A stretch of DNA of 48,726 nucleotides, from assembly GCA_025351745.1 (NCBI GenBank), contig JANXVI010000039.1:1-48726 (forward strand), given 5' to 3'. The translations under genes and the position numbers were made by a program. Of this stretch, positions 1-42,071 are shown one piece after another. Source of the stretch: Rhodoferax sp. GTDB taxonomy: Bacteria; Pseudomonadota; Gammaproteobacteria; Burkholderiales; Burkholderiaceae_C. Below the pieces are notes generated by a model. That model did no database searches. It was not told the DNA's origin and saw nothing but the letters and a program-made list of their open reading frames with translations. Within the stretch, counting starts at the first letter, position 1. Each line of letters starts with the position of its first letter.

Positions 1-1008
1 AAACAGGCCGGTCATGTTCGGGTCCAGCTCCACCAAGGTCACGCTTTCCACGCTGGGGTATTTCAGGATCTCACGCACGGCCATGCCGTCGCCACCGCCC
101 AGCACGGCCACCTTGCGCGGTGCGCCGAAGGCCGACATCACGGGGTGGACCAGGGCCTCGTGGTAGCGGTATTCATCGCGCTCGGCAAACTGCAGGTTGC
201 CATTCAAAAACAGCTTGTGCCCGGTGCGGCCGTTGGTGACGACGATGCGCTGGTAGGGCGATGTGGCGGCCAGCACGATGCGGTCGTGGTAGAACTTGTC
301 TTCGGCCAATGTGGTGATGTGATCGGCCACGGCAAAGCCCACGCCGAGGGCCACCACGGTTAACACACAGGCCCAGGCATGGGCACCCCAGTGGCGCAAT
401 TCATGGCGGAAGACCCATAGCGTCCAGAACGCAACTGCCGCATTCAGCAGGCCGAACAGTAGCCCGGTGCGAATCAGCCCCAACTGCGGCACCAGCAACA
501 GCGGAAAGGCCACCGACACGGCCAGCGCACCCAGGTAGTCAAAGGTCAGCACCTGCGACACCAAGTCTTTGAGCGCCACTTCGCGCTTGAGGATGCGCAT
601 GACCAGTGGAATCTCCAGCCCCACCAAAATGCCGACCACGCCGACCATGCTGTACAACAAGAAGCGGAAGGCGCCCGGCATGTAGGCGTTTGACAAGAAC
701 AGCAAGCCGGGCATGGCGCCACCTGCCAAGGCCACCATCAGCTCGATACGCAGAAAGTGCGCAGGCAATTGCCGGTCAAAAAAGCGCGACAACCACGAGC
801 CCACGCCCATGGCGAACAGATAACAACCGATAACCGTGGAGAACTGCAGGACCGAGTCGCCCAGCAGGTAAGAGGCCAACGCACCTGCGGCAAGTTCGTA
901 GACCAGACCGCATGCCGCCACGACAAAGACGCTGGCGAGCAGCGTGACTTCCAGCGGACGGGGTGTTGCGCCCCGTGTAGGCGCCTCTATCGAATCCGAC
1001 AAATGCAA
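1..1008 (-). CDS. Membrane-anchored spermidine synthase-like aminopropyltransferase (partial)
   Basis: The gene runs off the left window edge, so its C-terminus is missing and the ORF track does not list it. Translating the minus strand gives an N-terminal half rich in hydrophobic segments (for example LLASVFVVAACGLVYEL and FLLYSMVGVVGILVGLEIP), about six to seven membrane helices, followed by a soluble methyltransferase-fold region with the spermidine-synthase signature VAVLGGGDGMAVREILKYP and VTLVELDPNM. Family knowledge: these enzymes move aminopropyl groups from decarboxylated AdoMet to an amine, here at the membrane. No ATG is available near the N-terminus; the TAA stop of the DUF350 gene is in the same frame and abuts a TTG (start used), with another TTG six bases on. 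It is the last visible gene of the SPFH-DUF4178-DUF350 operon. The family is clear; the substrate and exact start are not. Confidence 0.85.
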   Translation of the reverse strand, partial: MHLSDSIEAPTRGATPRPLEVTLLASVFVVAACGLVYELAAGALASYLLGDSVLQFSTVIGCYLFAMGVGSWLSRFFDRQLPAHFLRIELMVALAGGAMPGLLFLSNAYMPGAFRFLLYSMVGVVGILVGLEIPLVMRILKREVALKDLVSQVLTFDYLGALAVSVAFPLLLVPQLGLIRTGLLFGLLNAAVAFWTLWVFRHELRHWGAHAWACVLTVVALGVGFAVADHITTLAEDKFYHDRIVLAATSPYQRIVVTNGRTGHKLFLNGNLQFAERDEYRYHEALVHPVMSAFGAPRKVAVLGGGDGMAVREILKYPSVESVTLVELDPNMTGLF

Positions 1009-1227
1009 TTAATGGATAGCCGCAGCGATGATCACGCAGATGCCCAAGCTCATGGCCGCAACGACCAATGCCAGCGCAACGTTTTGTTTCTCGACAATCT
1101 CGCCCCACAAATCGTAGGGCGTGATCTTGTCGATGATGATGAAGCACAGCCAAAATATGATCACGCCCATCAGCGCGAACACCAGGGAGCTGAGCACGAC
1201 GCCCGGTTTTATCAATTCAAAGCCCAT
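1009..1227 (-). CDS. DUF350 family small membrane protein
   Basis: A 72-residue protein with two membrane segments (about residues 12-32 and 50-70) separated by a short polar loop, YDLWGEIVEKQN, typical of DUF350. The ATG has a clean SD, AGGAG, about six bases upstream. Its stop codon directly abuts the likely TTG start of the spermidine-synthase-like gene, and only 30 bases separate it from the DUF4178 gene, so it is co-transcribed with both. Known context: DUF350 is repeatedly found with DUF4178, SPFH and spermidine-synthase genes in envelope-stress neighbourhoods; its biochemical role is not established. Confidence 0.85.
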   Translation of the reverse strand: MGFELIKPGVVLSSLVFALMGVIIFWLCFIIIDKITPYDLWGEIVEKQNVALALVVAAMSLGICVIIAAAIH

Positions 1228-1257
1228 GGAATTCTCCTAATAAAAATATGGGATGCA

Positions 1258-2760
1258 TCACTTGTGACCTCCACCACCCGAAAAACCGCCATACGAACCA
1301 CCCGAACTACGCGAGCTGGAGGACGATGAACAATTCTCCACCTGCGGATCGCAACTGGAGCAACGGCTTAGCATGGAAATCAGGATAAGCGTGATAACCA
1401 GGACCACGATGATGGTGCCAATGCCTATTCCTTTTGCGGCGCTGAACGGCGTTACATCGCGTTTGAGCAGGTCCTGCTTGTCCTCCAGCTTGAAGGCTTT
1501 GGCCACCACTTCACTGTCGATCTGATCGCCACTGGACCACACCAGCTCGGTCGGACTTTGCTCCATGGACAGCAGGCGCTTGCCGTTGGCGAAGTCTTTG
1601 TTCTTGGTCGTCTGGCCGCGCTGCACCAGCCAGTAGAACTCACCACACACGTAATTGGTCTCAGCGGTGTAGCTGTATTTCAGCGTGTAGTTGGTGCCCA
1701 TGTAGCTAGCGCTGCTGGCCGCAGAGCTGGACATGGCTGGCGCACCGGTGGTGGGGCGCACCAGGCTCCAGCCTTCTTCCGAATCCACCAAAAAACTGAA
1801 ACCCCGCTTCTGGTTGTAAAGCAGGTACTCGCTCCAACCAAAGTGTTCGTCATCGCCCGGCGCCACGCCCATGCGGTGCTGGAAACCCACCACCTGCCAT
1901 TGCACACCTTGCAACTGCCCCAAACTGCCCAGCGGAATCACCGGCTGAACCGGCTCTTCTTGTATGGCGGACTTGAGCTCGCCACCAATGCCCTGGCTCA
2001 GATCGATAACGCTATTGCAACTGCCGCAGGTAATACTCTTGCTGGTGGCCAGCGTGACGGTGACCGGTGCTCCGCAGTGCGGGCAATTGAATTGGCGGCC
2101 TTTTTCTTCTTTGGTCGAATCGTCCTTTAACCCTTTGAGCGCCAGGTCGTCCAGCAACACGGCCGTGCCTTGCGACACGGCGGGCGGTGTGCCGGTGTAG
2201 TCAATGCTGATGACCTCGCCACTGGCACTGCGCAATTCGACCACATCAAAGGGCTGACCCAGTGGCGGCAGTTTGGGCAACTCGCCCTGCGCGCTGATCA
2301 GCGTTGCCGATACATTGCTGGCGACACTAAATGGGTTGCCATTGACGTTTACCTGATTGCCCACCACGTAGCGGTCGGCCGGTGGCATATTGCGCTGCTG
2401 GGTGTCGGGTTGCGTGATGACATAGGCGCCGTTGTCTTCTGCCAGCCAGCCAGACTGGCCGTCGTCGAACATCGCATTCCACTCGGCCCAAGTACCCTCC
2501 GCAGTTTTGTACTGCAGACGCCCGATCAGCGTGAAATTGCGCTTTTGGTATTTGCCACTGGCAAAGAGTTGCAGCGGACTGTGGTCGTCAAACAGTTCGG
2601 CCATTTTGCCGATGCGAGACAGCACATCGCCATTGCGCACCACCGTGCTCTGGCAAAAGCCGCAGACGGCGTGCGTGGACTGTGCGGAGCGAAACTCCAC
2701 CGGTGCACCGCACCCGGGGCAGGGCGCGGTGTATTTACGCTGTGCGGTTTCAGTGGCCAA
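1258..2760 (-). CDS. DUF4178 domain protein with two zinc ribbons and C-terminal membrane anchor
   Basis: A 500-residue protein. It has an N-terminal zinc ribbon (CPGCGAP ... CGFC), a first DUF4178 module (about 55-200, with the FTLIGRLQYKTAEGTWAEWN pattern), a second zinc ribbon (CPHCGAP ... CGSC, about 225-250), a second DUF4178-like module (about 280-400, VVGFQHR and WSEYLLYN), one membrane helix (IGTIIVVLVITLILISML, about 447-464) and a Cys/Ser/Gly-rich tail. The only usable start before the first ribbon is TTG; an in-frame TAA lies 24 bases upstream of it. No SD precedes it, because the arm of a hairpin repeat (2764-2849) occupies that position. It sits between the SPFH and DUF350 genes of the operon. 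The function is unknown beyond its association with envelope-stress clusters. Confidence 0.85.
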   Translation of the reverse strand: MATETAQRKYTAPCPGCGAPVEFRSAQSTHAVCGFCQSTVVRNGDVLSRIGKMAELFDDHSPLQLFASGKYQKRNFTLIGRLQYKTAEGTWAEWNAMFDDGQSGWLAEDNGAYVITQPDTQQRNMPPADRYVVGNQVNVNGNPFSVASNVSATLISAQGELPKLPPLGQPFDVVELRSASGEVISIDYTGTPPAVSQGTAVLLDDLALKGLKDDSTKEEKGRQFNCPHCGAPVTVTLATSKSITCGSCNSVIDLSQGIGGELKSAIQEEPVQPVIPLGSLGQLQGVQWQVVGFQHRMGVAPGDDEHFGWSEYLLYNQKRGFSFLVDSEEGWSLVRPTTGAPAMSSSAASSASYMGTNYTLKYSYTAETNYVCGEFYWLVQRGQTTKNKDFANGKRLLSMEQSPTELVWSSGDQIDSEVVAKAFKLEDKQDLLKRDVTPFSAAKGIGIGTIIVVLVITLILISMLSRCSSCDPQVENCSSSSSSRSSGGSYGGFSGGGGHK

Positions 2761-2763
2761 GGA

Positions 2764-2849
2764 GGGAGGGGCGGTAGAGGGTTATGCGCAGGAAAAGGAG
2801 GAGCCCGAAGGACGGGGGACACGAAGCAGAACGCTCTGCCGCTCCTCCC
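2764..2849. repeat. Hairpin-forming dispersed repeat, family A copy 1
   Basis: About 86 bp with imperfect inverted arms: GGGAGGGGCGGTAGAG on the left against CTCTGCCGCTCCTCCC on the right, 19 of 23 positions pairing. The arms flank a core that includes GGAGGAGCCCGAAGG and CGGGGGACACG. The core and inner arms match a second copy at 41853-41942 with about four differences over 46 bases. The copy lies between the SPFH stop and the TTG start of the DUF4178 gene, three bases from that start. No transposase is encoded, so it is MITE- or REP-like. Confidence 0.8.
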
Positions 2850-2864
2850 GGCCCCGCCCTACCG

Positions 2865-3911
2865 CTAGACCAGCTTCTTCAACAACTCGGCCTTCTTGGC
2901 GGCAAATTCGTCCTCGCTCAGAATACCCTTGGCTTTGAGTTCGCCCAGCTTCTCCAGCGTGGACAGAATGTCGTCGGGCTTGAGCGTGGCCGCCGCTTGT
3001 GCCGCAGCGGCCTGAGCGGCACCCTGGTTGTTGCCCTGGAGCCCGGCCTGCAGGTTTTGCGCCAGCACCTGGCCCAGTGCCACGCCGGCACCCAGGCCCA
3101 TGGCGTCGCCAGCAATGCCACCACCTCCACCGCCGCCCTCGGCAAATTTGGGGATGGCCTGTGCGGTCTGGTACTGCATGAACTTGCCCATGTCGTTGCC
3201 GACCATGCCCATGCCGATTTTCTGGTCCAGAATCTTTTGCAGCTCTTCGGGCAGCGAGACGCTTTGCACCGTCATGTTTTCGAGCTTCAGGCCCAGCTTG
3301 GCCATCTCGGGGTCAAGCTGGGTGCGCAGCGCCTTGGCAAACTCGATCTGGTTGGAGGCCAGGTCCAGGAACGGGATGCCGCTGGCCGCAATGGCATTGC
3401 TGATGTTTTGCAACACCAGGCCGCGCAGCTGGCCATCCAGTTCAGACACCGTGTATTCCTCACGGGTGCCGGAGATTTCGGTGTGGAACAGCTTGGGGTC
3501 GGTTACGCGAAATGCGTAGTTACCAAAGGCGCGGATGCGTACCGCGCCAAAGTCTTTGTCGCGGATGGTGATGGGCTGGGGCGTGCCCCACTTCTGGTCG
3601 ATCTGTTGGCGCGTGCTAAAGAAGTACACATCGCTCTTGAAGGGGGACTCAAACAGCTTGTCCCAGTTCTTCAAATAGGTCAGTACGGGCAGCGTTTGCG
3701 TGGTCAGCTTGTAGGTGCCGGGGCCAAACACGTCAGCGATCTTGCCTTCATTGACGAAGATGGCCATTTGCGATTCGCGCACGGTGAGCGAGCCACCGTT
3801 CTGGATTTCCATGTCGCGCATGGGAAAGCGCCATGCCAGGGTGCCGTCGCCCTCTTCGGTCCACTGGATGATGTCTATGAACTGTTTCTTGATGAAATCC
3901 ATTAGAGCCAT
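2865..3911 (-). CDS. SPFH domain protein with C-terminal SHOCT domain (YdjI-like)
   Basis: A 348-residue protein beginning MALMDFIKKQFIDIIQW, the usual N-terminus of the SPFH/YdjI 'virion core-like' family. The SPFH region spans about residues 20-230, a glycine/alanine/glutamine-rich linker (about 240-305) follows, and a SHOCT domain (LGELKAKGILSEDEFAAKK) closes the protein. The ORF track extends the frame to 4535, but the ATG at 3911 has a strong SD, AAGGAGG, nine bases upstream and the extra 208 residues are not family-like, so the shorter start is used. It is the first gene of the minus-strand cluster with DUF4178, DUF350 and the spermidine-synthase-like gene. Family knowledge suggests a membrane-associated scaffold; the exact role is inferred. 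Confidence 0.88.
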   Translation of the reverse strand: MALMDFIKKQFIDIIQWTEEGDGTLAWRFPMRDMEIQNGGSLTVRESQMAIFVNEGKIADVFGPGTYKLTTQTLPVLTYLKNWDKLFESPFKSDVYFFSTRQQIDQKWGTPQPITIRDKDFGAVRIRAFGNYAFRVTDPKLFHTEISGTREEYTVSELDGQLRGLVLQNISNAIAASGIPFLDLASNQIEFAKALRTQLDPEMAKLGLKLENMTVQSVSLPEELQKILDQKIGMGMVGNDMGKFMQYQTAQAIPKFAEGGGGGGGIAGDAMGLGAGVALGQVLAQNLQAGLQGNNQGAAQAAAAQAAATLKPDDILSTLEKLGELKAKGILSEDEFAAKKAELLKKLV

Positions 3912-4014
3912 GGTGTGGGCCTCCTTCATTAGGGTTAACTGGAACCGGTCGCAATGATACACAGCAAGCGCCGCCTTGTGTCGCCTCAACAGTTGTATGG
4001 GATATGCTGGTGCG

Positions 4015-41852: not shown

Positions 41853-41942
41853 GGGGTCTGGGCGGCAGAGCGTTCTGAGCAGGTAAAGGAGGAGCCCGAA
41901 GGGCGGGGGACACGGAGCAGAACGTTCTGCCGCCCAGACCCC
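41853..41942. repeat. Hairpin-forming dispersed repeat, family A copy 2
   Basis: Inverted arms of 25 bp with one mismatch (GGGTCTGGGCGGCAGAGCG and its complement CGTTCTGCCGCCCAGACCC) flank a 40-base loop that carries AAAGGAGGAGCCCGAAGGGC. It abuts the rsmE stop. Core matches copy 1 at 2764-2849. Confidence 0.85.
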
Positions 41943-42071
41943 GCCCCCGCAGAAAGCAAGAGCACCATCAGGGTTTGTACGCGTCTAGGTTAGTGCCCCA
42001 ACTCCTGCATGCGTGGGCATACTACAGTGACGCATTTGGTTGCCTTTGACCTATTCGCGAGGAGACATTTC

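Follow-up and report, generated by a model that had tools for sequence, protein, structure and literature searches.

A PspA-free, SPFH-type gene cluster around a predicted membrane aminopropyltransferase in Rhodoferax sp.

Four genes at the start of a Rhodoferax sp. contig form a conserved, co-directional unit, which is a PspA-free, SPFH-type variant of a published kind of operon. With a probability of roughly 0.55, the cluster was read as belonging to a system of an AdoMet decarboxylase, a membrane aminopropyltransferase, DUF350 and DUF4178 that performs periplasmic aminopropylation of an acceptor other than putrescine and adjusts the envelope. The decarboxylase (SpeD, on contig C419) would make decarboxylated AdoMet, and the aminopropyltransferase (hereafter the synthase), with its seven transmembrane (TM) helices, would pass the aminopropyl group, the unit from which polyamines are built, to the acceptor at the inner membrane, its catalytic domain most likely facing the periplasm. 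The product would then be oxidised or turned over by a flavin amine oxidase (on contig C281) that is anchored to the membrane on the periplasmic side. The zinc-ribbon/DUF4178, DUF350 and SPFH-SHOCT proteins may act as a cytoplasmic and membrane scaffold or regulator; since they would stand in the place of PspA-CesT, the system as a whole probably acts to adjust the inner membrane or the envelope. The evidence that points to the scaffold and envelope roles is gene association.

The window, i.e. the whole stretch of DNA that was analyzed (48,726 nucleotides), corresponds to contig C129 in full; the assembly (5.1 Mb) is fragmented, and the genome is about 92% complete. The genes for the SPFH-SHOCT, DUF4178 and DUF350 proteins and the truncated synthase are all on the minus strand (Table 1). 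The order given in the initial annotation was confirmed. Its description of short spacing was restricted to the last three genes, because the successive gaps are 105, 30 and 0 bp and the 105-bp gap is a repeat element. This hairpin-forming repeat (core GAAGGACGGGGGACACGAAG) occurs more than 40 times across the genome, at 75–94% identity, including once at 41860-41946 of the window. Its folding (-44 kcal/mol, z -1.05) was no better than that of shuffles of the same composition; a terminator or riboswitch in the gap was rejected on these grounds, and the repeat is probably outside the cluster's function. The intergenic region upstream of the SPFH gene is common to that gene and a divergent FMN-oxidoreductase gene. 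A -10-like element (TATNAT/CAATAT) was found in 42 of 56 SPFH upstream regions, compared to 2.3 in shuffles. Neither sigma54 nor sigmaE motifs were found upstream of SPFH in the 56 sequences, and this lack of the motifs of known envelope-stress regulons counts against the main reading. A search for a plasmid origin returned no match.

Table 1. Coordinates of the cluster's features and of related features at other loci (window positions unless a locus is named).
Feature	Location	Strand	Details
SPFH/Band_7_1 protein with C-terminal SHOCT helix pair	2865..3911	-	348 aa; first gene of the cluster; Pfam Band_7_1 3.2e-78, SHOCT 6.3e-9
DUF4178 protein	1258..2760	-	500 aa; two DUF4178 copies, Pfam E=9e-34
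DUF350 protein	1009..1227	-	72 aa; Pfam 1.1e-13
7-TM aminopropyltransferase fusion, 5' part	1..1008	-	PRK03612/NF002956 3.2e-128; Spermine_synth E=3e-15
Interspersed REP-like repeat	2759..2862	.	fills the SPFH-DUF4178 gap
Intergenic promoter region upstream of SPFH	3912..4014	-	TATNAT-like -10 element
Synthase continuation	L009:4040-4750 and L010:2691-3389	-	exact 141-bp overlap
Unannotated tail proteins, 49-100 aa	L148 6444-6746, L149 6813-7067, L150 9928-10212, L151 10382-10630, L156 8033-8182, L157 9998-10189		one TM, Gly-rich tail

The synthase gene runs past the contig end. As the initial annotation had proposed, sequence beyond the left edge was sought, and the 3' part was located on contigs C143 and C142, each of which has exactly 141 bp in common with the window start. 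The first 141 bp are also identical between these two contigs, which are thus alternative paths, i.e. two strain haplotypes. The joined reading frames were uninterrupted (525 and 521 aa for C143 and C142, respectively), and the C-terminal parts of the two haplotypes are 94% identical at the protein level. Both haplotypes also have a CHAP/TIGR02594 amidase-like gene in common, but the small genes that separate it from the synthase are wholly unlike in the two, an arrangement that resembles an exchangeable immunity cassette (region L009 1040-3870 and L010 1039-2607).

The roles of the donor- and acceptor-side residues are those of established spermidine synthase (SpdSyn) structures: GGGDG, VELD and DxxDP mark the decarboxylated-AdoMet site of SpeE, and the Tyr of PTYPSG is on the putrescine side. 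In the synthase alignments, GGGDG, VELD and the DxxDP aspartates were invariant or nearly so, and the donor-site residues were invariant over 38 sequences, down to 58% identity. As modeled by AlphaFold (pLDDT 87), the closest relative has seven TM helices, followed by an aminopropyltransferase domain at its C-terminus. The best matches of the catalytic domain were the T. thermophilus polyamine/agmatine aminopropyltransferase (1uir/3anx) and plant thermospermine synthase (6bq2), with which the synthase shares its fold and donor site; those enzymes are soluble, however, and lack the seven TM helices and altered acceptor loop found here. That loop, PTYPSG in spermidine synthases, is PSFGEWG in all full-length alignment rows shown, and Phe replaces the pocket Tyr, as it does in the T. 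thermophilus enzyme. The synthase has the donor site of canonical SpeE but not the Tyr of PTYPSG, and its closest full-length relative scored far below the cut-off of the curated SpeE model TIGR00417 (135.8 vs. 249.55 bits). The initial annotation had called the protein a membrane polyamine-transferring enzyme; a membrane aminopropyltransferase was upheld, but spermidine synthesis is doubtful because the acceptor side differs and such fusions reportedly do not replace spermidine synthase.

The sidedness of the synthase was predicted from the distribution of Lys+Arg residues in its loops. Over 38 homologues, the means were 2.9, 3.7 and 3.0 after TM2, TM4 and TM6, and 0, 1.0, 1.1 and 1.2 after TM1, TM3, TM5 and TM7, respectively; the loop after TM7 also has 2.8 acidic residues. 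By the positive-inside rule, which can mislead, the N-terminus is probably cytoplasmic and the catalytic domain periplasmic. The export signals of the oxidase (see below) agree with this placement. A periplasmic aminopropyltransferase would require decarboxylated AdoMet outside the cytoplasm, which is a point against the main reading; we know of no exporter of this compound, and the seven-TM part would be the obvious candidate for bringing it to the periplasm.

Co-occurrence was surveyed across 151 genomes from the family to which this one belongs, using counts that ignore shared ancestry. DUF4178 was present in 86 genomes, all of which were among the 88 with the synthase (Fisher p about 1e-40, uncorrected for shared ancestry). 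Where the two were on the same contig, they lay within 12 kb of one another in 80 of 80 pairs (median 2.1 kb). SpeD was found in 84/88 synthase genomes vs. 9/63 others, and 74 of these 84 had no separate ordinary SpdSyn-like match listed; thus, the membrane synthase is the evident user of the SpeD product. More than half of the sampled family genomes keep a decarboxylase with the membrane enzyme as its only evident customer. The genome under study has its own SpeD (C419:308-661, 1.8e-20) with an ESH processing site.

Gene order was examined at 80 named loci, mostly from Comamonadaceae, and counts were taken among the loci with room for the gene in question. DUF4178 was present at 73/77 and DUF350 at 70/75, and SPFH was upstream of DUF4178 at 60/69, being missing from the Comamonas and Delftia clusters; SpeD was within 10 kb of the synthase at 25/65. 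Downstream, 75 of the 77 named relatives with room for it had a PF01593-like flavin amine oxidase. This oxidase is the fifth core gene of the system and bears export signals in most relatives: a twin-arginine motif was found in 64/75 N-termini and a lipobox-like sequence in 50/75 (by regular expression, with some starts unresolved). The oxidase of the present genome (577 aa, beginning MQRRHFL...AAGC) has both twin-arginine and lipobox signals. It and the decarboxylase were overlooked in the initial annotation because both are outside the window. Fragments of a TonB-dependent receptor, all on the same strand, lie at the right end of C281 and the left ends of C143/C142, which suggests that C281 adjoins C143/C142 and that the oxidase is several kb downstream of the synthase. 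The contig ends had no overlap, and adjacency of oxidase and synthase in this genome is therefore not claimed.

Li, Kurihara, Kim, Liang and Michael reportedly described, in 2019, the linkage of an MFS/7TM-SpdSyn fusion with an AdoMet decarboxylase and DUF350; such fusions are said to co-occur with active AdoMet decarboxylases in bacteria without spermidine and to fail to complement a speE mutant. The present cluster has in common with that linkage the multi-TM-SpdSyn fusion, the decarboxylase in the genome and DUF350 directly upstream of the synthase. It differs in that DUF4178 and SPFH-SHOCT belong to the unit, relatives have an exported amine oxidase, and SpeD is on another contig. No later work on the membrane aminopropyltransferase fusion was found in the literature searched. 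An ordinary polyamine pathway, in which a soluble diamine is converted to spermidine, aminopropylagmatine or thermospermine on the cytoplasmic side and the membrane part has an export function, would fit the aminopropyltransferase fold and donor residues, the broad-range enzymes among the best matches and the presence of SpeD. It is nonetheless unlikely, given the predicted C-out topology, the changed acceptor residues, the low TIGR00417 score, the obligate linkage to DUF4178 and the reported failure of complementation.

The other members of the unit were examined for their relation to the membrane. The SPFH protein, whose identification as SPFH-SHOCT held, had been taken for a membrane scaffold; no TM segment was predicted (hydropathy maximum 1.38), and any scaffold formed by it would be peripheral or cytoplasmic at best. 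Two TM helices (segments 14-32 and 50-68) were predicted for DUF350. The DUF4178 protein consists, in order, of a zinc ribbon, DUF4178, a second zinc ribbon, a second DUF4178, a TM helix (445-463, hydropathy 2.86) and a glycine/serine tail that ends in SGGGGHK. All eight Cys of the zinc ribbons (two CxxC pairs) were invariant in 25 homologues. The named loci yielded 73 complete DUF4178 proteins. The terminal residues are -HK in 67 of them and -GGGK in one; the remaining five belong to deep lineages, and most of these have a second TM. Within the family, the last two residues are constant and those preceding the tail are variable. The tail should lie on the periplasmic side. In DUF4178 proteins of the Gallionella and sphingomonad types, the tail is replaced by a second TM and an acidic cytoplasmic end. 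At six loci outside the family, a separate small protein was found with a single TM and a Gly-rich tail whose last residues are GHK/GGK (GLRGGK, GLHGGK or GHK; Table 1); the two that were scanned (L149 and L157) had no Pfam match. The structure model of DUF4178 (pLDDT 81) matched nothing in the PDB at E below 0.001, and the matches to beta-barrels (Cap15, FABP) were too weak for naming the fold. By eye, a membrane protein beside DUF350 in PspA-type operons (L150 9363-9956) resembles the C-terminal region of Gallionella-type DUF4178 (...DDEGxWxE... / ...DGGESWSEG...; L133/L137 DUF4178 extracytoplasmic C-termini), which suggests a fusion or fission.

The acceptor in the main reading could be a membrane lipid or an envelope glycan, with the added aminopropyl groups altering surface charge, much as other cationic modifications of the envelope do. 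This is a special case of the main explanation, and is not contradicted by it. While the membrane-embedded enzyme, the periplasmic signals of the oxidase and the association with membrane-stress scaffolds (PspA or SPFH) are in its favor, the conserved gene set includes neither a lipid-binding domain nor a lipid-A-type gene, and this choice of acceptor is doubtful. A more specific proposal is that the seven-TM part delivers decarboxylated AdoMet, the periplasmic domain modifies the C-terminal lysine (-GGHK/-RGGK) of an outward tail, and the oxidase converts the modified tail; we regard this as a long shot. The tail in question is the end of the DUF4178 protein here and the separate 49–100-aa membrane protein in other lineages. 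The tail as a universal substrate is made less plausible by the Gallionella-type and sphingomonad-type proteins described above. Aminopropylation of the tail lysine, if true, would constitute a novel modification of a protein, with a loose parallel in hypusine. An outward catalytic domain, an exported oxidase and a lysine-ended tail would explain earlier failed searches for a soluble product, and these features turn the question of the acceptor, which dates from 2019, into specific tests.

The initial annotation had noted that such neighborhoods are known around Psp-type genes, and related PspA operons have indeed been published (Ravi 2024, PMC11237479). The group 2 operons of that study combine PspA-CesT/Tir with a 7TM-spermine synthase, DUF350, DUF4178 and the Ctha_1186 lipoprotein. 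A Band-7/SHOCT variant in group 3, with an AdoMet decarboxylase and a polyamine oxidase, has Band-7 in place of the PspA dyad; at its center is a glutathionylspermidine-synthetase-like ligase, and the band-7 protein of this variant contains two TMs. The present cluster resembles group 2 in having DUF4178, DUF350 and the 7TM synthase in one operon, but SPFH-SHOCT is found instead of PspA/CesT, DUF4178 is doubled and fused to a TM and a glycine tail, and the Ctha_1186 lipoprotein is absent from the window, the intergenic gaps leaving no room for it. It shares with the group 3 variant the SHOCT Band-7 protein replacing the PspA dyad, the decarboxylase and the oxidase; the ligase and the two-TM band-7 protein are absent here. 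New here are the predictions of a periplasm-facing synthase domain and oxidase and of an outward, glycine-rich -HK tail.

PspA was detected neither in the cluster nor in the genome at its roughly 92% completeness. Above the Pfam cut-off, it was found in 14/151 family genomes, 11 of which had the synthase (11/88 synthase genomes), and in 0/11 of the latter was it in the cluster. Because PspA is absent here and scarce in the family, the "Psp-type" label is an analogy; the classical PSP features (PspA with sigma54 control) were likewise lacking. A PspC-domain protein is encoded 24 kb away, as had been noted, at window positions 27471-27115 (PspC E=5e-22), with an N-terminal SHOCT-like pair below the Pfam cut-off (E=5e-4). 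Its proposed link to the cluster did not hold up: relatives inspected within about 10 kb gave no support for the gene as part of the system. At four distant, gammaproteobacterial-type loci (L148-L151), CesT_Tir_1, PspA, a single-DUF4178 protein, a long DUF350 and the synthase occur together, with SpeD adjoining the cluster in three of the four, an arrangement in line with the account of Ravi et al. 2024; at L152 and L155-L157, SPFH is present and PspA absent. SPFH-SHOCT and PspA-CesT thus occupy an equivalent slot in different lineages. This equivalence, along with the rarity of PspA in the family, would suit a PSP-like membrane repair system with SPFH-SHOCT in the place of PspA and with an aminopropyltransferase that has lost its catalytic role and serves as a structural or sensing part. 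That arrangement is very unlikely, as the invariant donor-site residues and the SpeD that goes with the synthase in 84 of 88 genomes argue for catalysis.

The initial annotation had staked the grouping on conserved linkage, and the unit was retained across relatives, spanning Comamonadaceae, Gallionella, Rhodocyclaceae, and alpha- and gammaproteobacterial-type genomes. Close relatives have much gene order in common and a REP-like element separates genes 1 and 2, but the notion that the four genes are neighbors by descent only, with no common function, is already contradicted, since the unit persists across distant lineages with its order rearranged and its orientation even reversed (L156, L157) and has not been dispersed by foreign insertions inside the operon of some relatives. 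The operon is an insertion spot for defense genes. At L044 (9266-15443), a type III restriction-modification module, comprising Mod, a further 562-aa gene and Res, is located between DUF350 and the synthase, with PADLOC matches of 1e-175 and 1e-190; similar insertions, judged by gene sizes only, are present at L045, L064, L089 and L129.
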